A DNA stretch of 64,000 bases from Mariprofundus sp. Its GTDB lineage: Bacteria; Pseudomonadota; Zetaproteobacteria; Mariprofundales; Mariprofundaceae. Positions 16,437-49,972 of this stretch are shown piece by piece. The position numbers and the translations under genes were made by a program. The stretch lies in the NCBI GenBank assembly GCA_021772775.1, contig JAJFLH010000007.1, forward strand, positions 1 to 64,000. The letters are read 5' to 3'. Under the pieces are notes generated by a model. That model did not search any database. It was given only the letters and a program-made list of their open reading frames with translations, and had not been told where the DNA came from. Positions within the stretch are counted from its first letter, which is position 1, and each line of letters opens with the position of its first letter.

Positions 16437-16889
16437 TCATTCACCATCCGGTACGGCGATCACGCTGAGAAAGAGTCCCAGCTCCCTGATAGCGTTGCTG
16501 AATTCAACATAATCAACTGGTTTGGTGATATAGATGTTGCAGCCCAGTTCATAGCAGCGCCGAACCTCTCTATCATCATCTGTGGTGGTCAGGATGATGA
16601 CAGGAATATGTTTGGTTCTGGGGTCGGATTTCAGCTTGTCCAACACCTGATAGCCATCAAGCACGGGCATATTTAGATCCAGCAGTAGCAGTACATCGTG
16701 ATCATGAGGGTCACCCTCAAAGGCATCGCGGCCAAGGATGAAATCCAACGCTACTTTACCATTTTCGCACCATTGAACCGGATTATTAATACCAGCTCTC
16801 TGTAAATTTTTTTGTGTGAGCTTGGCGTGCCCCTCTTCATCTTCGGCCAGAATGATAGTGACGGGTTTTGTTTTAATGTTTGATGCCAT
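16437..16889 (-). CDS. Rcp1-type single-domain response regulator
   Basis: 150-residue receiver. ED17-18 form the acidic pocket, Asp71 in LLLLDLNMP is the acceptor, with TTT and Lys-Pro (ITKPVDY) following. The long alpha2-beta3 loop (FILGRDAFEGDPHDHD) and RAGINNPVQW are typical of the Rcp1 group, which partners phytochrome-like or soluble-tail histidine kinases. Last gene of a three-gene minus-strand operon: binding protein, kinase, receiver. Only three bases separate it from the kinase gene, so it is the obvious phosphate acceptor of that kinase. Confidence 0.9.
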   Translation of the reverse strand: MASNIKTKPVTIILAEDEEGHAKLTQKNLQRAGINNPVQWCENGKVALDFILGRDAFEGDPHDHDVLLLLDLNMPVLDGYQVLDKLKSDPRTKHIPVIILTTTDDDREVRRCYELGCNIYITKPVDYVEFSNAIRELGLFLSVIAVPDGE

Positions 16890-16892
16890 GGT

Positions 16893-18902
16893 TTAAACCT
16901 CCGGTTTATTGGAAAAATTTGAATTTAGGGGAAGGAAAACCGAGAAGGTGGAGCCTACATTTTCCTCTGATTCAAATGTTATACTGCCATTCTGGGCGCG
17001 GGCCAAGGTCTGCACATAGGCCAGTCCCATGCCTTCACCCTGTACATCCTGATGTTTGCCACGCCTAAAAATCTGGAACACTTTATCATTCTCTTCTTCA
17101 CTGATGCCACGGCCATTGTCAGTGACATTGATCGTGATGCCATTGTCATCTGATTCAGCATTGATACTAATATTGCCGGCGCGATCCAAAGCCAGATATT
17201 TAATAGCATTGCCGATCAGGTTGTTCATGATCTGTTCGATGACGATGCGATCATTATCAATCACGGGAAGCGTGTTTAATTCGACCGTCGTGCCTGTTTG
17301 TTTGATCTGGTGGGTGAGGGTGGCAAGGATTTCATCACAGAGTGGTTTCAAGTCGATCGACTCAATATGTAGCTCTCGTCTGCCCAATCGCGACAGCGTA
17401 AGGATAGCTGTAAGCATATGATCCATCTTCGCCACCGATGTACTGATGAATGAAAACGATTCAGGAATATCCTCCTGAATAAGGCGATGCATGGTTTTAC
17501 GATCACGTTGTTCCAGTTTTTCTTCGATGCGCTCGGTGAGTTCAGAAATTTCTTTTAGTGTGTATTCCAGTTCGCCGGTAAACCCTTTCATGTTGACCAG
17601 TGGTGAGCGTAGATCATGTGAAACGATATAGGCAAAACTTTTAATCTCTTCGTTGGCAGCAGCAAGTGTGGCAGTTCGCTCACACACTTTTTGTTCGAGC
17701 ACTTCTCCAGCTTTGATTAGCGCCAGATTCTTTGTACGTATCTCCCGGTTATACTCTTCGAGATGGTCGGCCATGACATTAAATGCAGTGGCCAATTGGC
17801 CGATTTCATCGCCGCTGCGAAATGTGCTGCGGACAGAGATGTCGCCTTCTGCATAGCGCAGTGTGGAATCCGTCAATCGGGCAAGCGGAGCGGTGATGCT
17901 TCTTGCCAACAGGTAAGCGATGAAAACAGCGATAAGTAGAATGCCTGCAACAATAATCAGGGTAATGCTTTTCATCTGCTCAACAGGCTCGAGCAATTCC
18001 TCGGTGTCCATTTTGACTACGATACCCATCTGGAGCTCTGGTATATAACCCCAGGCGGCGGCAACATCAATATCGCGGTAATCTTTGTCGAATGCACTGC
18101 CGACATCTCCCTGTAGTGCATACTGAATAGGGCCAGCAAGACTTGACCCCATCGTAACCTCAAGATCAAGCTCAGCTGACGGCATGTGCCTGAGCGGCGC
18201 AAGGTATGCTTTATCCTGCTTTAGAATACCGGCCACAACCTCACCTGATTCTCCCAAGCCTGTAATGGAGGTGAGGGTATCATGTAGTTCTTCCCAGTTA
18301 ATTTGCACGGCTGTGACGCCCAATATTTTATTGTCGTGTATGACAGGTGTGGCGATGAACAGGGCTGCTTCACTGCTGGGCTCATAGTAGGCAACCGTAG
18401 AAATTTGGGGTTGCAGCATCTGCATGGCCTGGCGAAAGACTTTGGCCAGCTGGGTCTCTTTGTATGGGCCACTCAAGAGATTGGTTCTGGCATCGACTTC
18501 ATTGCCCATGCTGTGGATAATATTTCCGTTTGTTGAAATAATGAACAGGTCATGAAGATCGTAGTACTCGCCCTGCTGATCAATGGCATTATGGATTGGA
18601 CTGTTGCTTACTGTTTCAGAATATTCAGCCGGATTATGGTTTGAAAGGTCTTTGATCACTGCAGGCAGAGTGGAGAAACGCTCGTTATCTCGAATGCTTT
18701 TCTGAATACTTGTTCTGATATCATGAATTCGGTTGTTGCGTATATCGGCCATATGCTCAACAGCTTGATGAATCATACTGGATTCAAACTGCTTGAAGGT
18801 AAAATAAGAAATGGATATTGCAGAGAGAAATACAACGACAAATAGTGCTGCCACTACGCGGTAGCGAATAGGAGAGCTGCTGAATCGAATAAAACGTCGC
18901 AT
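16893..18902 (-). CDS. Membrane sensor histidine kinase with dCache-like periplasmic domain
   Basis: 669 residues. TM1 is at about 15-34, the periplasmic Cache-type sensor at 40-310, TM2 at 312-332, HAMP at 333-385, a coiled segment, HisKA with His429 in IVSHDLRSP, and a C-terminal HATPase with GNAIKYL and GRGISEEEN. The sensor has the pattern EYYDLHDLFIIS..GNIIHS, followed by LLSGPYKETQLAKVF, shared with three other proteins in this window. Eight bases downstream of the UrtA-like lipoprotein gene and three upstream of the Rcp1-type receiver. Probable input: a ligand presented by, or in parallel with, the binding protein. The ligand is unknown. Confidence 0.92.
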   Translation of the reverse strand: MRRFIRFSSSPIRYRVVAALFVVVFLSAISISYFTFKQFESSMIHQAVEHMADIRNNRIHDIRTSIQKSIRDNERFSTLPAVIKDLSNHNPAEYSETVSNSPIHNAIDQQGEYYDLHDLFIISTNGNIIHSMGNEVDARTNLLSGPYKETQLAKVFRQAMQMLQPQISTVAYYEPSSEAALFIATPVIHDNKILGVTAVQINWEELHDTLTSITGLGESGEVVAGILKQDKAYLAPLRHMPSAELDLEVTMGSSLAGPIQYALQGDVGSAFDKDYRDIDVAAAWGYIPELQMGIVVKMDTEELLEPVEQMKSITLIIVAGILLIAVFIAYLLARSITAPLARLTDSTLRYAEGDISVRSTFRSGDEIGQLATAFNVMADHLEEYNREIRTKNLALIKAGEVLEQKVCERTATLAAANEEIKSFAYIVSHDLRSPLVNMKGFTGELEYTLKEISELTERIEEKLEQRDRKTMHRLIQEDIPESFSFISTSVAKMDHMLTAILTLSRLGRRELHIESIDLKPLCDEILATLTHQIKQTGTTVELNTLPVIDNDRIVIEQIMNNLIGNAIKYLALDRAGNISINAESDDNGITINVTDNGRGISEEENDKVFQIFRRGKHQDVQGEGMGLAYVQTLARAQNGSITFESEENVGSTFSVFLPLNSNFSNKPEV

Positions 18903-18910
18903 GGCTAGGG

Positions 18911-20191
18911 TTACTCAGCTTGAGGTGCTGCCCAGTGCAGCCCCCAACGATCATATAAAACATCTGTAAGTTGTTTTGCTTCATCACTCAAAATCTTTAA
19001 TGGATAGGGATTCGGACGAAGCATTTTTTCGAATTTCCAGACGATATCAAATTGACCATCAGCAGTAACTTTTCCGATACGAGCGTGTTTCCATGTATGC
19101 TGGGAGTTCAGCCCAAATCCGATGATGCCTTCAGGGGCTGCGAAGCTTTGGCTTCTCAGGTTGAAAAGGATATTGCTGTTTTCAGTGCTTCCAACCAGTT
19201 CGGCGGCCTGGGCCCAGAGATGTACCCCGATATAAGCGGCCTCCATCGCATCACTAAGTACTCTATTTTGTCCGAATCTAGCTTTAAATGCTTTGACAAA
19301 TTTATGGTTCGCTTCGCTATCGATGCTCTGAAAATAGCTGGCCGCAGCATAGTGACCGGTCATTTTATCAGGATTCATTCTGGCCAGTTCATTTTCGCCA
19401 ATACTGAATGAGAGAATGGGCGTAGTTTTTGAGGTGAGACTGCTTTCAGAGAATGCTTTAAAAAAACTGATGTTACTGTCACCATTGATAGTGTTGATCA
19501 CGACATCAGGTTGAAGTCTGGTGATTTCAGCTATGGCGGTTGAAAAAATGTTACTGCCTAGTGGCTGATAATTCTCGCCGACGATTTGTATACCCTGCAG
19601 GGCTGCCTGCCTTTTGATCAGCCAGTTGGCGACTCTGGGGAAAATATAGTCGGAACCGACCAGATAAAGCCGCTTGCCCAGATGTTCAGAAGCCCAACTA
19701 ATGGCAGGGATAATCTGCTGGTTGGGCACCGCACCGGTATAGATGATATGCGGCGAGAGCTCCATGCCTTCATATTGCACAGGATAAAATAGCAGGCTTT
19801 TGTAATGTTCCACGACAGGCTTAACCATTTTCCGGCTGGCCGAGGTCCAGCAGCCAAATATCACAGCCACCTTATCTACAGTAATCAGACGTTTAGCCTG
19901 AATGGAAAAGATTTCCGGATCCGACTTTCCATCTGCTATTACTGGAATAAGTTTCCTTCCCAGCACGCCGCCTTTGGCATTAATCTCTTCTATAGCAAAG
20001 AGGGTAGCATCAATCACCGCTTTTTCACTGATGGCCATGGTACCTGTTTGTGAGTGTAAGATGCCAATATTGATGGGTTGATTGTCACTATTTTGGCAGC
20101 CAATCATGAATAGCGCCAAAGCCATCGAGATGAGTGGCAATATGCTACGCCTGCATAGCTGTTTGAACCTGAATTTCGGTATCTGGGGCAT
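18911..20191 (-). CDS. UrtA/AmiC-like periplasmic binding lipoprotein, probably sensory
   Basis: 426 residues. The N-terminus has a basic region, a hydrophobic stretch and the lipobox FMIGC with Cys32, so it is a predicted lipoprotein. The mature part is a type-I periplasmic binding fold close to urea/short-amide binding proteins: ILHSQTGTMAISEKAVIDAT, VAVIFGCWTSASRKMVKPVV, YPVQYEGMELSPHIIYTGA and TINGDSNISFF. A paralogue lies at 44227-45546. No permease or ATPase gene is adjacent; the next gene is a histidine kinase, so a ligand-sensing role is more likely than uptake. The urea/amide ligand is inferred from family resemblance only. Confidence 0.88.
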   Translation of the reverse strand: MPQIPKFRFKQLCRRSILPLISMALALFMIGCQNSDNQPINIGILHSQTGTMAISEKAVIDATLFAIEEINAKGGVLGRKLIPVIADGKSDPEIFSIQAKRLITVDKVAVIFGCWTSASRKMVKPVVEHYKSLLFYPVQYEGMELSPHIIYTGAVPNQQIIPAISWASEHLGKRLYLVGSDYIFPRVANWLIKRQAALQGIQIVGENYQPLGSNIFSTAIAEITRLQPDVVINTINGDSNISFFKAFSESSLTSKTTPILSFSIGENELARMNPDKMTGHYAAASYFQSIDSEANHKFVKAFKARFGQNRVLSDAMEAAYIGVHLWAQAAELVGSTENSNILFNLRSQSFAAPEGIIGFGLNSQHTWKHARIGKVTADGQFDIVWKFEKMLRPNPYPLKILSDEAKQLTDVLYDRWGLHWAAPQAE

Positions 20192-20311: not shown

Positions 20312-22414
20312 ATGACAGACCAGGAATCAGTGATGCCAATCAGTGATCTGCGCATTCTCTATATTGAGGATGATGCAGGCTTGGCTCGCCTGTTGCAAAA
20401 ACAGCTACAGCGACAATACGGTTATCAGCTGGATATTGCTGTCGATGGTGAACAGGGTTTACACGATTTACAGCATCAAGCTTATGATATGGCTATCGTT
20501 GATTATAACCTGCCCGTTTTTAACGCCTTGCAACTGCTCTATATGCTTAAAGAGCGTGGCATTGATGCGCCGATCATTATTCTCACAGGTGCGGGCAATG
20601 AACAGATTGCAGCTGATGTGATGAAAGCAGGTGCTGTCGATTATCTGGTTAAGGATGCCGATGGCGGACATATCAAAAAAATTCACTCCACTGTGCAGCG
20701 GGTCTGGCAAGAGAGACAGAAACAGCTGCAGAAGAAGTTGGTGTTCGCAAAGCGTAAATTGGCTGAGAAGGTATTTGATGTGACCAAAGAGGGCATCATT
20801 GTGACCGATGCCAATCGGGTGATTGAAGCTGTAAACCCTGCATTTTCACTCATCACAGGTTATTCATATGAAGAGGCTTTTGGCAAAACACCGGGCATGT
20901 TGCAATCTGGCCATCACGATGCTCAGTTCTATCAAAAGATGTGGCAGTCGATTGATGAGCATGGCAGTTGGGAAGGTGAAATCTGGAATCGACGTAAATC
21001 CGGTGAGGAGTATCCCGAGTGGCTGGTTATCAATGCAGTGCATGATGAGGCTGGAGAACTTACGCAATACATCGGTGTATTTACCGATATCAGCAGGCGT
21101 AAGGAGGACGAGGAAAAAATATGGCATCAGGCTAATTTTGATGAGCTGACTGATTTGCCCAATCGCGCTCTACTGATTGACCGTGCCTCTGAAGCCTTAC
21201 GTCGGGCAAAGCGTGAAAGCACCTCTTTAGCTATTATCTTTATCGATCTTGATCGCTTTAAATATATCAATGATCACTATGGCCATGCAGCAGGAGATAG
21301 ATTACTCATTGAGATGGGTAAACGCATACGATCGGCCTTACGCCAGAGTGATACTGTCATTCGTCTTTCAGGCGATGAGTTTATTGTACTCATGCCGCTC
21401 ATTCACCACGCCGCCGATGCAGGGGGGGTGGCGGAGAAGATTATCTCCACCGTGTCAGCGCCATATATGATCAATGATAATAAAGTCTATGTGTCGGCCT
21501 CAGCCGGAGTTGCCGTTTTTCCAAGTGATGGTGATAGTGTGGATGTGCTGCTCAGTCATGCCGATATGGCCATGTATAACGCCAAGGATAGCGGCCGCAA
21601 TCAGCATCTTTTTTATAACCAGAAGATGAATGATGAAGCTGAAACAAAGAGAGTCATCGAGCGTGAACTACATACGGCAATCAATGAAAACCAGCTTGTG
21701 ATGTATTTCCAGCCGGTGACGAATTTGAGCACAAATAGAATATCCCATGCAGAGGCATTGATTCGCTGGAATCACCCAAGCAAAGGTCTGGTGATGCCGA
21801 ATGATTTTATTCCGATTGCTGAGGAGTCCGGGCTGATTATCCAGCTGGGTGAGTGGGTGATCGATGCGGTATGCAAGCAGTTGATGGAGTGGAAGGGTAA
21901 AGTCGATGAATCATTACGAATTTGTTTGAATGTTTCACCGACCCAGATGATGCATGCCAATCTGGACAGACAAATGCAGATGGCGATAACCCGTTTTGCA
22001 CCTCCTAGAGGCAGTATTATCATCGAGATTACCGAGAATGTGCTCATCGACGGGCCTGATAAGATCAAGATCAAACTCGATGAGATGAAAGCGATGGGGA
22101 TGAGTTTTCTAATCGACGATTTTGGCACCGGTTTCTCTTCGATGCGTTATTTGAAGAAGCTACCATTCGACGGATTGAAAATTGATCGCAGTTTTGTTGC
22201 TGATGTTGATAGTGATAATGAGAAAGCCGTACTGGTCAAAGCGATGATTGAAATGGCGCATAACCTGAATCTGAAAGTGGTTGCTGAAGGAGTTGAGAGG
22301 GAGGCAGAACTGGAGTTGTTACGCATCTATGGTTGTGATTATGTGCAAGGTTATCTGCTGGGCAGGCCTATGCCAGCAGATGAATTTTTAAATAAAATAC
22401 AAAAGAAAAGTTGA
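20312..22414 (+). CDS. REC-PAS-GGDEF-EAL cyclic-di-GMP turnover protein
   Basis: 700-residue cytoplasmic response regulator. Receiver 12-125 has Asp64 (AIVDYNLP) and Lys114. PAS spans about 155-265. The GGDEF domain (about 280-430) has SGDEF as active-site loop with an RQSD inhibitory site five residues before it. The EAL domain (about 445-695) keeps EALIRW, CLNVSP, EITENV, IDDFGTGFSS, LKIDRSFV and AEGVE, so the phosphodiesterase looks intact; the SGDEF cyclase is plausible too. Divergent from the binding-protein/kinase/receiver operon, with 120 bases between the starts, so that kinase is a candidate phosphodonor. Confidence 0.95.
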   Translation: MTDQESVMPISDLRILYIEDDAGLARLLQKQLQRQYGYQLDIAVDGEQGLHDLQHQAYDMAIVDYNLPVFNALQLLYMLKERGIDAPIIILTGAGNEQIAADVMKAGAVDYLVKDADGGHIKKIHSTVQRVWQERQKQLQKKLVFAKRKLAEKVFDVTKEGIIVTDANRVIEAVNPAFSLITGYSYEEAFGKTPGMLQSGHHDAQFYQKMWQSIDEHGSWEGEIWNRRKSGEEYPEWLVINAVHDEAGELTQYIGVFTDISRRKEDEEKIWHQANFDELTDLPNRALLIDRASEALRRAKRESTSLAIIFIDLDRFKYINDHYGHAAGDRLLIEMGKRIRSALRQSDTVIRLSGDEFIVLMPLIHHAADAGGVAEKIISTVSAPYMINDNKVYVSASAGVAVFPSDGDSVDVLLSHADMAMYNAKDSGRNQHLFYNQKMNDEAETKRVIERELHTAINENQLVMYFQPVTNLSTNRISHAEALIRWNHPSKGLVMPNDFIPIAEESGLIIQLGEWVIDAVCKQLMEWKGKVDESLRICLNVSPTQMMHANLDRQMQMAITRFAPPRGSIIIEITENVLIDGPDKIKIKLDEMKAMGMSFLIDDFGTGFSSMRYLKKLPFDGLKIDRSFVADVDSDNEKAVLVKAMIEMAHNLNLKVVAEGVEREAELELLRIYGCDYVQGYLLGRPMPADEFLNKIQKKS

Positions 22415-22676
22415 GGTCTGAAGTTTATCTGACTTTTTTGCTATAAGGTAAATCCGAAGAGATGAATGCGGTAAATATTATTTATAAACCTTACAGAATT
22501 CATGAGATCAGTCAGCTGATCCGCCACTGCCTTAATAACTGATGAAACAATTGTACCATAAAAATCATATGGTTAAATGGATGTTGGTTATTGGCTTTGA
22601 TCTTGCTTATTCCCTGATAATCCGACAATAGATTTTATACTGTATAGGAAAAGGCGCAATGGATCGAGGTGAAGTC

Positions 22677-25091
22677 ATGAAATTACGTACAAAAATGTTA
22701 ATAGCTACGATGTTACTATCCATTATACCACTGTTAGTGGGGGCTGGTTTGGTAGGGAAAATGGCGGCCAGTTCGGGCCATGAGGAAATTACGCATGAAG
22801 TGAAGGACAGGTTAGTATCCCTGCGTGAAAGTAAAAAACAGCAGGTTGAGCGCTATTTTCAGCTCATTCAAAAGCAGGTTATAAGATATTCCGGAGATTC
22901 AGTGGTGGTGGACGCCACGCAGGGATTTGAACGCTCATTTCGAACATTTCGCAAGGATAGTGGTCTGAGTTCGGCCAGTCGTGTTGCAGAGCAGCGGGAG
23001 CTATTGAAACCGACATATGATGGCTTTGATAAACGTTATCGTCAGGTGAATGGTGGTGTTGGTTCAGAATCGGAAACGATGTTAAATGGTTTGAGCCCTG
23101 AAGCGGTGGCATTGCAATATCAGTTTATTGAAAATAACTCGAATCCTGTTGGCTCAAAAGATGCTCTAAATGATATCTCCGTAGATTCTAAGTATGCTGA
23201 TGTACATGCCCGTTATCATCCGCAGATTCGTAAATACCTGAAAACATTTTCTTTTTATGATATTTTCTTGATTGACTCCAATTCAGGTCAGGTTGTTTAT
23301 TCGGTGTATAAAGAGCTGGATTTTGCGACATCGTTAAAGCAGGGGCCATTCGCTGACTCAGGCCTGGCAGAGGTCTACCGAAAAGCGATGAAATTAACGC
23401 ATCAGGATGGTGTGGTCATTACCGATTTTGCGCCCTATAAAGCATCATATGAAGCACAGGCTGGTTTTATTGCATCGCCGATTTTTAAGAATGGTGAACG
23501 CATTGGTATTCTGGTGTTTCAAATGCCAATTGATGCGATTAATGATGTGATGACCAGCAAGGCGAAGTGGAAAGATGTAGGGCTGGGGGAGTCGGGAGAA
23601 ACTTACTTGGTTGGTCGTGATAAACGTTTACGCAGCCAGAGCCGTTTCCTTATTGAAGATCAATCCGGTTATCTGAAAGCCCTGAAAGAGAGTGGTCTCG
23701 CAGCCAATGTGATTGAGCGCATTAAAGCAACCGGAAGTGGTATAGGTTTACAGCCCGTTGATACTCAAGGTGTGAGAGAAGCTTTGGCAGGACAAGAGGG
23801 GTTCAAGGTTTTCCCTGATTATCGAGGTGTGGCGGTGTTGTCGGCTTTTGCCCCAATTGAGCTTAAAGGCTTGGATTGGGTGCTTATGGCCGAACTGGAT
23901 GAGGAAGAAGCCTTTCATGGTGTGGAAGAGATGAATGATAATATTTTCACCTCTATTTTACTGGTTGTGCTCATCATTGCCGCTATTGCTATTGGGGTTG
24001 GGGCCTATGCTGCACGCTTGTTTACCGGTCCTGTTATGGATGCGGCTAAAGCTGCAGAACGCATCGCTACAGGTGATCTGGAGTCTCCCATCATCGCTGA
24101 ATCTAAAGATGAAATAGGTCAATTGGCGATTTCACTCAATGATATGCGTCTTGCTTTGGCAAAATCAGTTGAAGAACGGGAAAGGCTGGCAACAACTGAA
24201 CGGGAACAGGTTAAGTTGCAGCTTGAGTTACAGCGTCAGGAATCTGAGTTGGTAAAACATTTTGAGGGGAATATAGGTAGTTCTGTTGAATTGGTGAGTG
24301 GTACAGCAGAAGAGGTTAACGACTCGGCAACGGCTCTTGCTTCAACAGCAGAAGAGTTGACAGCACAATCCCAACTGACCGGAGAGAGTGTTGAGAGTGG
24401 TGCGGAAAGTGTGAATTCGACAGCCGCCGCATCGGAAGAGATGAGTGCTTCAATTTCATTGGTCACTGACCGGATTCATTCAGCAATGGATATTTCAAAT
24501 GAGGCTGTGCACCAGGCTAATGCAACCAATGATTCAATGTCGCATTTTAATGAGATGTCCAATCAGATTGGGTCTGTGGTTCAGGTGATCAGTGATATTG
24601 CAGAACAGACCAACCTGCTTGCGCTTAATGCCAGTATTGAAGCTGCTAGGGCAGGTGATGCGGGTAGAGGTTTTGCGGTCGTGGCGGGAGAAGTAAAAGA
24701 GTTAGCCAATCAAACAGCCAGAGCTACTGAGGAGATTTCATCGCAAGTATCTCAACTGCAGGGAGAGAGTGGTCGTGCAATTACGGCGATTAGCAAAATA
24801 TCTGAGGTGATTGGAAGGATGAACGAAATCAGCCAGAGTATTGATGAGGCGATGACACAACAGAATGAGGCGACACATGAAATTTCATCTGGTGCGCAGC
24901 AATCGACGGAGAGCATTTCGCAGATTCAACATGCTTTTGAGGATGTGATAGTGGCTTCAACGGATACAGCGCGCATGTCTTCGTCACTGCTGGAGACTTC
25001 AGATAAGCTTGCTCATGCAGCGGAAGAACAGAAACGTTTGGTTGAGGACTTCCTTTCAGAGATGAAAGAGATCAGATCGAGATCGACATGA
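22677..25091 (+). CDS. Methyl-accepting chemotaxis protein with large dCache sensor
   Basis: 804 residues. TM1 is near residues 6-28, a long periplasmic sensor reaches to about 415, TM2 ([18 protein letters not shown]) is near 425-445, then HAMP and a signalling domain whose tip reads [19 protein letters not shown]. The sensor contains [18 protein letters not shown] (about nt 23250), the same element as in the kinases at 16893, 36865 and 45543, with an N-terminal insertion relative to them. The ATG at 22677 is preceded by GAGGTG at five bases; an ATG six codons earlier (22659) is the alternative. Transcribed alone; no terminator is obvious. Confidence 0.93.
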
Positions 25092-44226: not shown

Positions 44227-45546
44227 TTGCAACGACTTTTTGTATTGATTCCCGCGGCTTTTATTTTGCTTGTCGCTGTAATTACATTATGGCGGGAAGA
44301 TGATCTTCCCCCTATTAAAGTTGGTATTCTGCACTCTCTGACAGGTACGATGGCGATCAGTGAAAAGCCCGTGATGCAGGCAACATTGCTGGCTATTGAA
44401 CAGATTAATGCCAAAGGCGGCCTACTTGGTCGCAAAGTTAAAGCTATTGTGGTGGATGGTGAATCTGAAGAGCTACTCTTCGCACGTGAAGCTGAACGTT
44501 TGATTGTTGAAGAAAACGTCAGTGTTATCTTTGGTTGCTGGACATCGGCCAGTCGTAAAATGGTTAAACCGATGGTTGAAAAATATAATCATCTGCTTTT
44601 TTACCCGTTGCAATATGAAGGTCTGGAACAATCCGCCAACATTATCTACACCGGTGCGACCCCCAATCAGCAGATTATTCCTGCTGTCTCTTGGGCAGTG
44701 CAACAATTTGGGCCACGTATCTATCTGGTTGGTTCTGATTATGTCTTTCCACGCGTAGCTAACTGGCTTATTGGCAAGCAAGCGCTTGCGTTAAATGCTG
44801 CAGTAGTTGGAGAGCGCTATATCCCGTTAGAGAGCAGAGACGTAGAAAGCATTATCGAGGAGATTCAAAAGCTTAAACCTGATGTGGTGTTGAACACAAT
44901 CAATGGTGATTCTAATATAGCCTTTTTCCATCGTTTGAACGAGGCTGGTATTACCGCTGAAGAGAGGCCTGTATTATCCTTCAGTATTGGTGAATCGGAA
45001 CTAACTAAGATGCATGATGATGATGGTGATCCAACGGGACATTTTGCAGCCTGGAATTATTTCCAAAGTATCGATAATCAGCAGAACCGCAACTTTATTG
45101 AAGCTTATCAATCACGTTTTGGCAAAGCTCAGCCAGTCAGTGACCCGATGCAGGCCGCATGGGCTGGAGTGCATCTATGGGCGAGGGCTGTTCAAGCCTC
45201 ACAAACAGATGATAGTCAGGTGATTCGCCAAAGTATTTCGCATCAGAGTCTTATTGCGCCGGAAGGAATTATTGCGATTGATCAGAAAACCCAGCATGCC
45301 TGGAAGACAGTCCGTATTGGCCAGATTCGTTCCGATAGTCAATTTGATATTCTCTGGTCCTCTAATGCACCTGTACGACCTGATCCATATCCAGCTCTGG
45401 TGACAAAACAGCAAGCCGATGCCTTTCTTCGTCAGCTTTATGATGGCTGGAACGGGCATTGGGCACGACCCATAGCTATGGATAAGGCTGCGGGACAGAT
45501 GATGCCTCACACTGAAAAGCCAGCGCAAGCGGGGAATCAGCCATGA
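44227..45546 (+). CDS. UrtA/AmiC-like periplasmic binding protein coupled to a kinase
   Basis: 439 residues, paralogue of the protein at 18911-20191. Shared blocks: ILHSLTGTMAISEKPVMQAT, FGCWTSASRKMVKPMVEKY, LLFYPLQYEGLEQSANIIYT and TINGDSNIAFF. The N-terminus (LFVLIPAAFILLVAVITL) is a signal peptide or anchor without a lipobox, unlike copy 1. The TTG start is supported by AGGAGG five bases upstream. Its stop overlaps the next ATG (ATGA), so it is translated with the histidine kinase; no permease or ATPase gene is present. A sensory ligand receptor is the best reading; ligand (urea or amide-like) is inferred. Confidence 0.9.
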   Translation: MQRLFVLIPAAFILLVAVITLWREDDLPPIKVGILHSLTGTMAISEKPVMQATLLAIEQINAKGGLLGRKVKAIVVDGESEELLFAREAERLIVEENVSVIFGCWTSASRKMVKPMVEKYNHLLFYPLQYEGLEQSANIIYTGATPNQQIIPAVSWAVQQFGPRIYLVGSDYVFPRVANWLIGKQALALNAAVVGERYIPLESRDVESIIEEIQKLKPDVVLNTINGDSNIAFFHRLNEAGITAEERPVLSFSIGESELTKMHDDDGDPTGHFAAWNYFQSIDNQQNRNFIEAYQSRFGKAQPVSDPMQAAWAGVHLWARAVQASQTDDSQVIRQSISHQSLIAPEGIIAIDQKTQHAWKTVRIGQIRSDSQFDILWSSNAPVRPDPYPALVTKQQADAFLRQLYDGWNGHWARPIAMDKAAGQMMPHTEKPAQAGNQP

Positions 45547-48323
45547 CTATTTCCAAAAGAGGTGCGGGTTCTGTCACACGTTCGATTATTGGTGAATTCA
45601 TGTTACTGCTCACCGTCATTATTGTGCCATTTTCATTCGTCATTGGCTGGTATGTTTTTAGTAGCTTTAATCAATTTACCATTCAGCAGCAGTTGCAATC
45701 ACTGGAAAGTTTAGCTGAAGAAAAATCAAGTACGATTAACCAATACATCGATGATCATATCGGCCGCATTGAAACTTTGAGTCTGATGCCAGTCACCACA
45801 TCAGCCATCGCTGCTTTTTCAGATGCATTTCAAACAGGCATTGATTCTGAATTGTATGATCGTACCAATACAGATTATGCAGAGGTTTATAAACGTTACC
45901 TTTCATACTGGAATTATTACGATCTATTCCTTATCGATTTGCAGGGTAATATTGTTTTTAGCATCAAACACGAAAGTGATATTGGCAGCAATTTGAAGAG
46001 CGGCCCTTATGGTGAGACAGCTTTGGGGCAGGTGTTCAAACAGTCACTGCTTATGCTACAAGCAAATAATAGTACCTTTACCTATTATGAACCATCCAAA
46101 GAAGTGGGCGCTTTTGTTGCAACGCCTGTGATTAGCGGTGGAAAAGTTATCGGGGTTATTGCACTGCAGTTCGATACCAATATTTTTTATGATGTGATCA
46201 ATAACCTGGTCGGCCTTGGCGCGAGTGGGGAAGTGGTTGTTGGGCAAGTGGTCAATGATAAGATTTTACTTACTGCACCACTGCGGCATGACCCAGATGC
46301 CGCATTCAAACGCACTATTGAACTCGATGCAGTCAATGCTTTACCGATCAGAGAAGGCTCTCAGGGAGGAACAGGCTCAGACATCATGATTGATTGGCGT
46401 GGTGAAGAGGTGCTAGCGGTATGGCAATATATTCCAGCTCTGAAATGGGGTATGGTTGTGAAAATCGATACCGAAGAAGTGTTTGGTCATTGGCAATATA
46501 TTCAAAGAAATTTGATTGTGTTTATAGGATTAGGATTGTTTATCAGCTATCTGCTGATTTATCTGTTTACGCGGCGCATCACACGCCCACTGCGCAAGCT
46601 CACCCAGGCAAGTCTGGCTTATGCAGCAGGCAAACATGATATACAGATTGATTCGTTGCTTGAGATTAACAATGAAGCAGGGGCTCTGGCCAACGCGTTT
46701 GGAGAGATGATCAGTCAGGTTCAGAGTTCAAAAGCAGAGCTGGAGCAGACAGTCGCAGAACTGGCGGAAAATAACCGCACACTGGACCAGAGGGTTGTGG
46801 CGCAAACAGAACACATACAAGGTATCATAAAATATTCGGCTGATGGCATCATCACCATGAATGCGAAGGGAGATATAGAAAGTGTTAATCCTGCGCTGTG
46901 TGATATTTTTGCTTATAGGGAGCATGAGCTTATCGGTCAGCCGATGACAATGCTGATGCCGGAGAAGTATAGAGAGGCACATCAGGCAGGCTTTAAACGC
47001 TACTCAAAGGGTGAGAAAGATTTTCATTTTAATCTTTCTGTTGAGTTGGAAGGTCTACGTAAATCCGGAGAGCTCTTTCCGCTTGATCTACATATCAATG
47101 AAATGTGTATTGGCTCCGAGACGCTGTTCCTGGGCAACATTCGAGATATCACGGAGGAAAAAACGAAACGTGAAAAACTTGAACATACGCAACGCCTGGA
47201 GTCACTTGGCATATTAGCCGGTGGTATCGCTCATGATTTTAATAATCTGCTTACCGCAATTCTTGGTAATGCAGCTTTGGCAAAAGGGCGTATTGATCAT
47301 AAATCACCTGCTACCGAGATGCTGGTCAATATTGAGAAATCCAGTGAACGTGCGGCGGTTTTATGTAAACAGATGCTGGCTTATTCAGGCAAAGGACATT
47401 TTGTGGTTGAAGTTTTCAATCTCAATGAGCTGATTGAGGAGATGATGAATCTTCTGGAAGTCTCTATTGAGAAGAGTGTTATGTTGCGTTTGGATCTTTC
47501 AGAGCAATGTTTACCCATCGAAGCTGATGTTGCTCAAATGCAGCAAGTGATTATGAATCTGGTGATCAATGCATCTGAGGCTATCGAAAATCATAGCGGC
47601 ATGATCACCATTCATAGCGCTGTTGTAGATATTGATCATGCTTATGCACAGAGCTTGTATATGGAAAATGAGCTGCTGGTCGGCCGTTATGTTGTTCTGG
47701 AAGTGTCCGATACAGGCTGCGGCATGGATGAAGAGACCAAAAAGCATCTGTTTGATCCATTTTTTACCACTAAATTTACTGGCAGGGGGCTGGGGATGAG
47801 CGCCATACTAGGGATTATTCGCGGCCATAAAGGTGCGATTAAGGTATATTCAGAACAGGGGAAAGGTTCGACGTTTAGAATGTTATTTCCATGCTCAGGT
47901 GCTATGCAAGTGGAACAAAAGAATAACATTAAAGAGGCTGTTCGCTCTGAGGACAGAGGTACTATTTTAATTGTAGATGATGAAGAAAATATCAGAGAAA
48001 CAGCGGCAATGATGCTTGAAGATATCGGTTTTACGACGCTTGAGGCGAAAGATGGTCTTGAAGGTATGGCGATGTTTCGCCAGCATCAGTCAGTGATTTG
48101 TGCTGTATTGCTTGATATGACCATGCCTCATATGATTGGTGATGAAGTGTTCCATGCTATTAGGGATATAGAGCCGGATATGAAAGTGATTCTATCCTCC
48201 GGCTATAGTGAACAGGATGCGACGAAAAGTTTTGCAGGTAAAGGACTGTCCGGTTTTATTCAAAAACCATATGGGCCGGATGATTTACAGTCCATTGTGC
48301 TCGAGGTTTTGAATGATAAATAA
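45543..48323 (+). CDS. Hybrid sensor kinase: Cache-HAMP-PAS-HisKA-HATPase-REC
   Basis: 926 residues. TM1 is near 15-37 and the periplasmic sensor carries YWNYYDLFLIDLQGNIVFS. TM2 is near 315-335, then HAMP, PAS (about 418-535; YSADGIITMN), HisKA with His564 (GGIAHDFNNLLTAI), HATPase (TKFTGRGLGMSAI) and a C-terminal receiver with Asp858 (VLLDMTMP). The HisKA type (AHDFNNLL) is typical of NtrB-like/hybrid kinases. Translation is coupled to the upstream binding protein by ATGA. Two atypical receiver genes follow on the same strand. Confidence 0.95.
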   Translation: MTISKRGAGSVTRSIIGEFMLLLTVIIVPFSFVIGWYVFSSFNQFTIQQQLQSLESLAEEKSSTINQYIDDHIGRIETLSLMPVTTSAIAAFSDAFQTGIDSELYDRTNTDYAEVYKRYLSYWNYYDLFLIDLQGNIVFSIKHESDIGSNLKSGPYGETALGQVFKQSLLMLQANNSTFTYYEPSKEVGAFVATPVISGGKVIGVIALQFDTNIFYDVINNLVGLGASGEVVVGQVVNDKILLTAPLRHDPDAAFKRTIELDAVNALPIREGSQGGTGSDIMIDWRGEEVLAVWQYIPALKWGMVVKIDTEEVFGHWQYIQRNLIVFIGLGLFISYLLIYLFTRRITRPLRKLTQASLAYAAGKHDIQIDSLLEINNEAGALANAFGEMISQVQSSKAELEQTVAELAENNRTLDQRVVAQTEHIQGIIKYSADGIITMNAKGDIESVNPALCDIFAYREHELIGQPMTMLMPEKYREAHQAGFKRYSKGEKDFHFNLSVELEGLRKSGELFPLDLHINEMCIGSETLFLGNIRDITEEKTKREKLEHTQRLESLGILAGGIAHDFNNLLTAILGNAALAKGRIDHKSPATEMLVNIEKSSERAAVLCKQMLAYSGKGHFVVEVFNLNELIEEMMNLLEVSIEKSVMLRLDLSEQCLPIEADVAQMQQVIMNLVINASEAIENHSGMITIHSAVVDIDHAYAQSLYMENELLVGRYVVLEVSDTGCGMDEETKKHLFDPFFTTKFTGRGLGMSAILGIIRGHKGAIKVYSEQGKGSTFRMLFPCSGAMQVEQKNNIKEAVRSEDRGTILIVDDEENIRETAAMMLEDIGFTTLEAKDGLEGMAMFRQHQSVICAVLLDMTMPHMIGDEVFHAIRDIEPDMKVILSSGYSEQDATKSFAGKGLSGFIQKPYGPDDLQSIVLEVLNDK

Positions 48324-48386
48324 TCGCCGATCAGTTTTTGTGCTTGTATTGATGTTTCAGTGTGAAAAAGAGATGAGACTGGACTG

Positions 48387-49016
48387 ATGGCAAAGATAAC
48401 CATCGTATCAACACATCATTTAAACCAGATACTGGTTGATAACATTGCATCCTGTTTGTTTACAGAAACCCATTTCAGAGTGTTTGAAGGTAGTAATTTT
48501 TTTCATGATATCGATGCGTTAATAGAAAAAAAACGCGCTGATGTATTGATTGCTTTTGTTAAAGACAAGGGACATTTGCAAAAGATAAGAAATATCATTC
48601 ATACCTATCCGAAACTTAAAGTGGTGATTACAGGGGTGAATCATAGAGATGTTATTTTTGAATACATTCAGCTTGGTGTAAAAGGCCATTTTGGTGATGA
48701 TATTTCAGAGGAATTATTAAAGCGGGCCATCAGGGTATTGCATCAGGGAGAAGTGTGGTTTGATCGTGAGGTTTCAGCCAAAGTGCTAGCCATGTTTATC
48801 GGTCAAAGTGTTGCAGCAATTCATACTCCCAAAAGTGCACTGTTATCAGCCAGAGAGCGTGAAGTGATGGAGTGTGTATCGCGTGGTATGAAAAACCGAG
48901 CTATTTCAGAGGCACTGTTCATATCCGAAAGTACGGTGAAAACCCATTTGTATAAAGTTTATGAAAAACTGGGTGTGAAGGATCGCATGTCAGCAGTCCT
49001 GAAAATGAACGAATGA
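48387..49016 (+). CDS. LuxR/NarL-type regulator with degenerate receiver domain
   Basis: 209 residues. The C-terminal HTH (about 152-205) is canonical: LSAREREVMECVSRGMKNR, ISESTVKTHLYKVYEKL. The N-terminal domain has receiver-like length and secondary-structure pattern (LGVKGHFGDDISEELLKRAI, then GEVWFDREV), but the acidic pocket is missing (VSTHH in place of V-x-D-D-H) and the expected acceptor position reads IAFV. It therefore probably does not use normal Asp phosphorylation. It lies 63 bases after the hybrid kinase gene, so its target genes could be the output of that module. Confidence 0.88.
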   Translation: MAKITIVSTHHLNQILVDNIASCLFTETHFRVFEGSNFFHDIDALIEKKRADVLIAFVKDKGHLQKIRNIIHTYPKLKVVITGVNHRDVIFEYIQLGVKGHFGDDISEELLKRAIRVLHQGEVWFDREVSAKVLAMFIGQSVAAIHTPKSALLSAREREVMECVSRGMKNRAISEALFISESTVKTHLYKVYEKLGVKDRMSAVLKMNE

Positions 49017-49053
49017 TGGCATGGTTATTGAATAAAACGAGGCAGATCTCATT

Positions 49054-49440
49054 ATGTTGAAAATATTTGTGCAAAACAGGCTAGCTGATCTTGCAGCGCA
49101 GTTAACAGGACTCGCTTATCAAGTGGAGTGTTGTTCTGAAACAATGGTTTTTAACGATTTAGAAGAACATCTGATTCATGGTGATATTGTTTTCTGGGAC
49201 CATATTCCGGAGTCAGGCTTCTATGGTTCCAAGGCCAACATCATTGTTGCCACTGCGAAAAGTAGTGCGACTGAAGAGCATGATGCTGCGAAAGCCGGAG
49301 CACTTGCTTATATCGCTTCCGACATATCTGATGAGATGCTGAAACATGTCATTGTGAGTGTCTCGAAAGGTGAACTTTGGATGACACGGGATACTATTGC
49401 CACGCTGTTTGATGAGTTCGTCAAATCAAAAGAGAGCTAG
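49054..49440 (+). CDS. Stand-alone atypical receiver-like protein
   Basis: 128 residues with no HTH. It resembles only the receiver half of the preceding LuxR-type protein, including a matching linker-like end (VSKGELWMTRDTIATLFDEF versus LHQGEVWFDREVSAKVLAMF). IVFWDHIPE places Asp49 where the phospho-acceptor belongs, and IIVATAK resembles the switch Thr strand, but the N-terminal acidic pair is absent (FVQNRL). It could modulate the kinase or the LuxR-type partner by competition or heterodimerisation; that is inference. It lies 37 bases after the regulator gene. I know no named family for it. Confidence 0.7.
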   Translation: MLKIFVQNRLADLAAQLTGLAYQVECCSETMVFNDLEEHLIHGDIVFWDHIPESGFYGSKANIIVATAKSSATEEHDAAKAGALAYIASDISDEMLKHVIVSVSKGELWMTRDTIATLFDEFVKSKES

Positions 49441-49647
49441 GAGTCTGTTGGATCTAGCTCACAAACTGCGAAAAGATGAATAATGGCTGATTTTCACCTT
49501 GATTCTCATTTTGAGCCCTGCTGTTCGCCTTAAATCAATGCAAACAGTAACTCAATCCCGTTATCCCTAGCTACCAGCTGCATAAGTCCTGAAGAGCACT
49601 GATCTGTTTTACAGGTATGAACCACTCTGTCCTACTTAAGTTGTTTT

Positions 49648-49854
49648 GTACCCTAGGGTACCCTCTCTGGCTACGCCATTCACCACGTCATACCCGACCT
49701 GATCGGGTGTCCAGAAATACGTTGAGTGACTGGATTGATTCAGCGCTTTGCGGCTCACCCTACGGGCGGCTTGCAGCCGTCCAAACGACTTCGTCTCCCT
49801 GTCCCGCCTTCGCAGGAAGAAGGTGAAGGCCGAGAAGCTGCCCTGGGGTATGAC
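49648..49854. repeat. Palindromic dispersed element with inverted end modules
   Basis: Left end 49648-49684 (GTACCCTAGGGTAC...GCCATTCACC) is roughly the reverse complement of the right end module at 49815-49854 (GGAAGAAGGTGAAGG...CTGGGGTATGAC). An inner boundary CGTCATACCC starts at 49686, and CGCTTTGCGG resembles the copies at 25167 and 53385. It fills much of 49441-49972; the remainder holds no gene that I can support. Confidence 0.7.
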
Positions 49855-49972
49855 ACGTATGGTTCAACTGCTGTCATGTCGAAGGCGCCTTGAAATAGCG
49901 TAATTTGTTGTTTGGTAATGTTATTCGAGGCTGTATTGAATACTATATGGGACAGTAGTGGGTTTGAACCGT

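Follow-up and report, generated by a model that had tools for sequence, protein, structure and literature searches.

A UrtA-like binding protein paired with a hybrid histidine kinase, and an adjoining pair of pseudo-receiver proteins, in a Mariprofundus genome

The window, i.e. the whole stretch of 64,000 nucleotides of DNA of Mariprofundus sp., a marine iron oxidizer, that was analyzed (source genome G000), contained the following four genes at 44227-49440:

SBP_B, 44227-45546, plus strand: UrtA-like (Peripla_BP_5) binding protein with an N-terminal hydrophobic segment and without a lipobox
HK_B, 45543-48323, plus strand: hybrid histidine kinase, TM-dCache-TM-HAMP-PAS-HisKA-HATPase-REC, without an Hpt domain
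LuxR_B, 48387-49016, plus strand: NarL-type regulator with a pseudo-receiver, an intact GerE HTH and WFDR at the position of the VpsT motif
pREC_B, 49054-49440, plus strand: stand-alone degenerate receiver of 128 aa, without an HTH, with WMTR before the C-terminal helix

The original prediction had described a binding protein gene overlapping a kinase gene by ATGA, followed by genes for a LuxR-type regulator and a receiver-like protein. All four open reading frames were found where they had been placed, and the 4-bp overlap, which joined the SBP_B and HK_B genes into a pair spanning 44227-48323, was exact.

SBP_B was assigned to Peripla_BP_5 (PF13433, E=9.7e-152) by a Pfam search. The start codon of its gene was TTG, with AGGAGG ahead of it, and a hydrophobic scan of the protein revealed a single hydrophobic segment at the N terminus (residues 4-22), while a lipobox was absent. 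SBP_B was thus a protein of the periplasmic binding protein fold carrying an export or anchor signal. The closest solved chain was 8tg1, followed by the urea-binding proteins 7s6f, 7s6e and 8hic and by AmiC, the structure of which (1pea) was matched at E=2.6e-55. The dCache domain of HK_B (residues 46-306) was located between two transmembrane segments (15-33 and 324-342), i.e. as an extracytoplasmic sensor domain. The catalytic residues of the kinase were intact, including the His (AHDFNN) and the N and G boxes, all receiver residues (DD, D, S and K) were present, and the core was recognized as a CckA-type kinase by NCBIfam.

Two modules of one design, 25 kb apart, had been described in the original prediction. 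The other module was confirmed at 16437-20191 on the minus strand, and it consisted, according to Pfam, of a binding protein, a non-hybrid dCache kinase and a single-domain receiver, with a REC-PAS-GGDEF-EAL gene divergent from them:

RR_A, 16437-16889, minus strand: single-domain receiver (Pfam Response_reg), after HK_A
HK_A, 16893-18902, minus strand: dCache-HAMP-HisKA-HATPase kinase, partner of SBP_A
SBP_A, 18911-20191, minus strand: paralogous UrtA-like binding protein, predicted lipoprotein with the lipobox ...MIGCQN
EAL_A, 20312-22414, plus strand: REC-PAS-GGDEF-EAL protein, divergent from SBP_A

SBP_A and SBP_B were 53-55% identical. The SBP_A/HK_A pairing was kept in genomes G050, G051, G058, G061 and G062, the position of RR_A behind HK_A was conserved, and EAL_A was divergent from SBP_A in G050, G051 and G058 as well. 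A dCache-HAMP chemoreceptor, adjoining EAL_A, was present at 22659-25091 of the window. It was also observed that an A-type binding protein of G058 (L057, G058:C221, 2571-4358), with a kinase adjacent, carried an extra C-terminal region matching part of dCache (E=6.9e-06).

The pairing was followed in 78 genomes of the order Mariprofundales, 1.2-3.1 Mb in size. A total of 35 binding protein matches were found across 30 of the 78 genomes, one of which was at the end of its contig, so that no sequence followed it. A kinase was located directly downstream of, or fused to, the binding protein in 33 of the 34 cases with downstream context. The remaining gene, that of G069, closed an operon that also encoded a histidine kinase and a REC-HD-GYP protein. 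The latter operon (L060, G069:C24, 9129-14037, minus strand) is a further link to c-di-GMP. In the G009 fusion, a binding protein domain without a signal sequence was joined to PAS-HisKA-HATPase-REC, with neither a transmembrane segment nor Cache; a split or frame-broken version of such a fusion was found in G048. The fusion protein itself (L063, G009:C97, 7365-10094, minus strand) is a predicted cytoplasmic binding-protein kinase.

The tree of the binding proteins and that of the kinases, the latter built on the sensor region (the first 430 residues), agreed in their principal clades, namely the A-type group, a group of G052/G062b/G053/G059/G061b/G060, one of G004/G005/G007, and G000_B with G045. 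Distances of the two proteins were correlated at 0.79 within the order in one set and at r=0.87 in the set for which DnaB was available, whereas DnaB accounted for hardly any of this (r 0.18 and 0.13). A partial Mantel r of 0.867 was obtained when DnaB was controlled for, a value reached by none of 5000 permutations. Both SBP_B and HK_B were nearest to their counterparts in G045, a member of another genus with a DnaB 68% identical to that of G000. The DnaB of G053 was 95% identical to that of G000, yet the G053 pair was farther from the G000 pair than that of G045. Because the two trees agreed without following DnaB, it was concluded that the two genes travel or are sorted together, irrespective of the species tree. 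Congruence of neighboring genes can also result from simple linkage; the gene fusion and the exchange of output domains speak in favor of a function. The prediction that a binding protein plus a Cache kinase is a repeated, co-inherited type of system was borne out, since the pairing extended widely beyond G000, the trees were congruent, and conserved linkage or fusion was observed together with co-inheritance.

It was considered that SBP_B might still be a transport protein, an orphan UrtA served by an unlinked permease, the uptake being controlled by the adjacent kinase. SBP_B was strongly similar to the urea-binding UrtA structures and reached 472.9 bits against the NCBIfam UrtA model (467.1 bits for SBP_A), but both scores were below the curated cut-off of 492.75. 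Moreover, no match to the UrtB permease was found in any of the 78 Mariprofundales genomes, G000 included, and no urease alpha subunit scored above the cut-off in the same genomes, while the same binding protein domain occurred fused to kinases and chemoreceptors. The transport explanation is therefore very improbable. As UrtB and urease were missing from the order in these searches, its UrtA-like proteins are probably sensors, and a sensory role is the probable one for SBP_B as well, its role in transport being doubted.

Further, SBP_B was compared with 29 UrtA proteins that were classed as transport-type by the permease-like gene following theirs. It retained 105 of the 133 positions constant in that set. 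E76, K88, K91 and K212, constant in the transport-type proteins, were replaced in the sensory set, and W105, T106, S107, Y126, Q129, Y130, E131, D171 and Y172 were kept in SBP_B and the sensory set; since the transport-type proteins came mostly from Firmicutes and cyanobacteria, these differences are confounded with phylogeny. The lost positions may correspond to a permease-facing surface and the kept ones to the ligand cleft, as read from this taxonomically skewed comparison. Based on the fold and the conserved residues, the ligand of SBP_B is probably urea or another small or short amide. SBP_B thus belongs to the same family as UrtA of the UrtABCDE urea transporter and keeps most of its constant residues, but it differs from UrtA by the changed positions, the score below the cut-off and a genome without UrtB. 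AmiC of the Pseudomonas AmiC/AmiR system contains a homologous binding protein domain serving amide sensing. AmiC is cytoplasmic and sequesters the antiterminator AmiR, whereas SBP_B is predicted to be exported and has a kinase as its partner.

Direct ligand binding is common among dCache domains. Hence, HK_B might sense through its own dCache, with SBP_B only modulating the response, e.g. as a ligand scavenger or an inhibitor released on binding. The near-complete conservation of the binding protein-kinase pairing and the G009 fusion, where the binding protein domain takes the place of the whole dCache and transmembrane part, make this explanation rather unlikely.

We propose that HK_B is a sensor kinase to which SBP_B is coupled as the binding protein, and that LuxR_B and pREC_B constitute an independent second unit; this is the likely organization of the locus. 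SBP_B would be anchored by its hydrophobic segment to the inner membrane, on the periplasmic side, where it would bind its small ligand. Judging from the co-inheritance, the gene fusion and the mode of action of other such systems, the binding protein would then dock onto the dCache domain of HK_B and alter the autophosphorylation of the intact CckA-type kinase. The phosphate would pass to the kinase's own receiver and from there to some unlinked Hpt or regulator.

LuxP/LuxQ and TorT/TorS are kinase cases of receptors stimulated by solute-binding proteins. The stimulation of chemoreceptors, kinases (e.g. the BctC case), c-di-GMP enzymes and Ser/Thr kinases by such proteins is an established principle (PMC9602780). 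As in those systems, the binding protein was encoded here with a transmembrane kinase bearing a periplasmic sensor domain, and the output domains varied across the class. The present pair differed in that its binding protein was of the UrtA/AmiC (Peripla_BP_5) family, in an order where UrtB was not found, and in that the interaction is deduced from the genes.

A scan of 84,980 species genomes, which is not a census, yielded at least 80 loci with UrtA-family proteins, the partner genes being assigned in part by BLAST to HK_A and HK_B. Among the loci listed, the nearest relatives bearing a name were Ghiorsea and Mariprofundus. Transport-type loci with a permease-like gene next to the binding protein gene were among those listed. 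The other loci listed included binding proteins with dCache-HAMP kinases, one of them with Hpt (Magnetovibrio), with a following dCache-PAS-GGDEF-EAL protein (Gallionella and Rhodocyclaceae), with HAMP-MCP (Tautonia) and with a dCache-HAMP-SpoIIE phosphatase (Azospirillum). Single-polypeptide fusions were listed as well: to histidine kinases in cyanobacteria and a planctomycete, to Ser/Thr kinases in Planctomycetes and to an MCP in Paenibacillus sabuli. A 1517-aa protein of a Deltaproteobacteria MAG (L109, 2446-6999) contained two UrtA-like domains and HEAT repeats. A binding protein and dCache kinase pair was also located on contig JACQCT010000001.1 (L091), labeled Thaumarchaeota, with a binding protein 54% identical to SBP_B; misbinning or transfer is possible.

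These loci indicate that one binding protein family, usually annotated as part of a urea transporter, has been recruited across phyla to provide the input to kinases, Ser/Thr kinases, chemoreceptors, phosphatases and c-di-GMP enzymes, and many 'UrtA' annotations may be functionally wrong. The predicted diversification at the output end held across the family, where c-di-GMP enzymes, chemoreceptors, a phosphatase and Ser/Thr kinases were encountered, but not for LuxR_B and pREC_B as the output of this particular module. The expectation of an undescribed system was likewise sustained in part: the general principle had already been described, and novelty applies at most to the UrtA-family branch and to the pseudo-receiver pair. 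No description of a UrtA-type binding protein with a hybrid kinase was found in a literature search that covered few subscription journals. The mechanism represented by SBP_B/HK_B is a known one, of which this pair is a new branch; it belongs to a widespread part of the UrtA family for which that search found no description.

The LuxR_B/pREC_B pair is the less explained part of the locus compared with the SBP_B/HK_B pair. The C-terminal GerE HTH of LuxR_B was clearly recognized (PF00196, E=1.1e-19). In the alignment, its receiver had ST in place of DD and lacked the phospho-Asp, the T/S and the Lys, which set it apart from canonical NarL/FixJ receivers. The acidic pair, the phospho-Asp and the Lys were missing from LuxR_B in all five genomes carrying it. 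pREC_B lacked the acidic pair and the Lys, and the residue at its phosphorylation site was Asp in four genomes and Asn in G053. The two receivers were therefore atypical, as predicted. The full set of phosphotransfer residues was present in 19 of 20 control NarL-type regulators from the order. Since neither receiver possessed these residues, phosphorylation of both by the kinase is unlikely, and the two proteins probably respond to the binding of a ligand or of another protein, not to phosphate.

Among 398 genomes sampled across the phylum, relatives of pREC_B were found in only five, which belonged to a single genus. An orthologue of LuxR_B was directly beside pREC_B in each of the five, with identities of 75-76% in two and 39-43% in two. 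The pair adjoined the SBP/HK genes in G000 only. In G053 and G058, it was followed, as in the window, by the M20 peptidase and GCS2 genes, but SBP/HK were absent and a cytochrome b561-DUF1924-diheme cytochrome operon ran in the opposite direction on its other side. In G063, the SBP/HK genes were located before the same peptidase gene, and LuxR_B/pREC_B were absent. G000 was the only genome found with both pairs at the M20 peptidase junction.

It had been predicted that the four genes were a single module in which SBP_B senses, HK_B transduces, and LuxR_B and pREC_B serve as the dedicated output. The genes lay on the same strand with gaps of 63 bp (HK_B to LuxR_B) and 37 bp (LuxR_B to pREC_B) and no predicted terminator in between, and four genomes (G000, G052, G053 and G062) contained both pairs. 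However, LuxR_B/pREC_B were unlinked to SBP/HK in all four other genomes carrying them, G063 had the SBP/HK genes at this junction without the second pair, and the phosphotransfer residues were missing from both receivers. A single module is thus unlikely, and the claim that LuxR_B and pREC_B formed its output end was not supported. The four genes are two units, and the position of LuxR_B/pREC_B behind HK_B is peculiar to the G000 genome. Because the gap behind HK_B was only 63 bp and no terminator was predicted in it, read-through could place LuxR_B/pREC_B under the same promoter as HK_B, and co-transcription in G000 is possible. Promoter and terminator scans were not clearly above shuffled sequences. 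The Rfam search returned one weak sub-threshold match to a viral stem-loop, which was taken as chance.

The second, independent unit would consist of a pseudo-receiver transcription factor, LuxR_B, and its stand-alone pseudo-receiver partner, pREC_B. No Pfam or NCBIfam match was obtained for pREC_B, and its sequence gave only chance matches against the PDB. Its AlphaFold model (pLDDT 92.9) had a receiver fold, best matched by the DesR receiver (Z about 13), with a further helix (112-127) after alpha-5. The LuxR_B model was of moderate confidence overall and poor (pLDDT about 40) at the region of the sixth helix of VpsT. In the PDB, VpsT ranked second among the sequence matches of LuxR_B, and it was among the best structural matches of this moderate-confidence model; it was absent from the structural matches listed for pREC_B, which has no bearing either way.

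A W-x-x-R sequence was found just after alpha-5 in all 10 LuxR_B and pREC_B proteins and in none of the 20 control regulators. VpsT binds c-di-GMP via W[F/L/M][T/S]R and has lost the phosphotransfer residues except the putative phosphorylation site (PMC9303241); the R134A replacement disrupts this binding (PMC3359988). The motif of LuxR_B was WF[D/H]R, with D or H at the third position where VpsT-type proteins have T/S, and therefore did not match the strict form. That of pREC_B was W[M/I][T/S]R, matching the strict form in three of five orthologues, the other two having WITR. Missing phosphotransfer residues and a Trp-Arg motif at the same position are shared with LuxR regulators of the VpsT/CsgD type. 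In the latter, the motif and the HTH are on one polypeptide, whereas here the strict motif was in pREC_B and the HTH in LuxR_B. Because of the W-x-x-R motif, c-di-GMP is the leading candidate for the ligand of the pair.

It may be suggested, tentatively and with considerable doubt, that the locus combines a split VpsT-like switch, in which c-di-GMP-binding pREC_B would pair with DNA-binding LuxR_B in a c-di-GMP-dependent, phosphorylation-free heterodimer, with a neighboring UrtA-family receptor class feeding several outputs, repeatedly c-di-GMP enzymes. The activation mechanisms of bacterial pseudo-receivers are largely unknown (PMC12632262), and a small pseudo-receiver pair with a recognizable ligand motif would make a tractable test case. 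For the Zetaproteobacteria, where a pan-genome study ties c-di-GMP signaling to stalk formation and attachment (PMC8250860), the locus supplies one candidate for a sensor and another for a pair of c-di-GMP-responsive regulators.

Assignment of LuxR_B/pREC_B to the diheme cytochrome operon was considered and rejected, as no stable link existed: the diheme cytochrome gene of G000 was on another contig, and the neighbors differed in G052 and G062. One further feature was located behind pREC_B:

Dispersed repeat, 49460-49940, no strand assigned: fills the gap that separates pREC_B from the M20 peptidase gene

This repeat of ~480 bp was mosaic and had 20 matches in the genome, on many contigs. Identity reached 93% in short pieces and was 86-91% over 180-270 bp away from 49460-49940. 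The repeat in the gap, together with the location of the diheme cytochrome gene on a different contig, suggests that the junction with the M20 peptidase gene is a rearranged, variable site.
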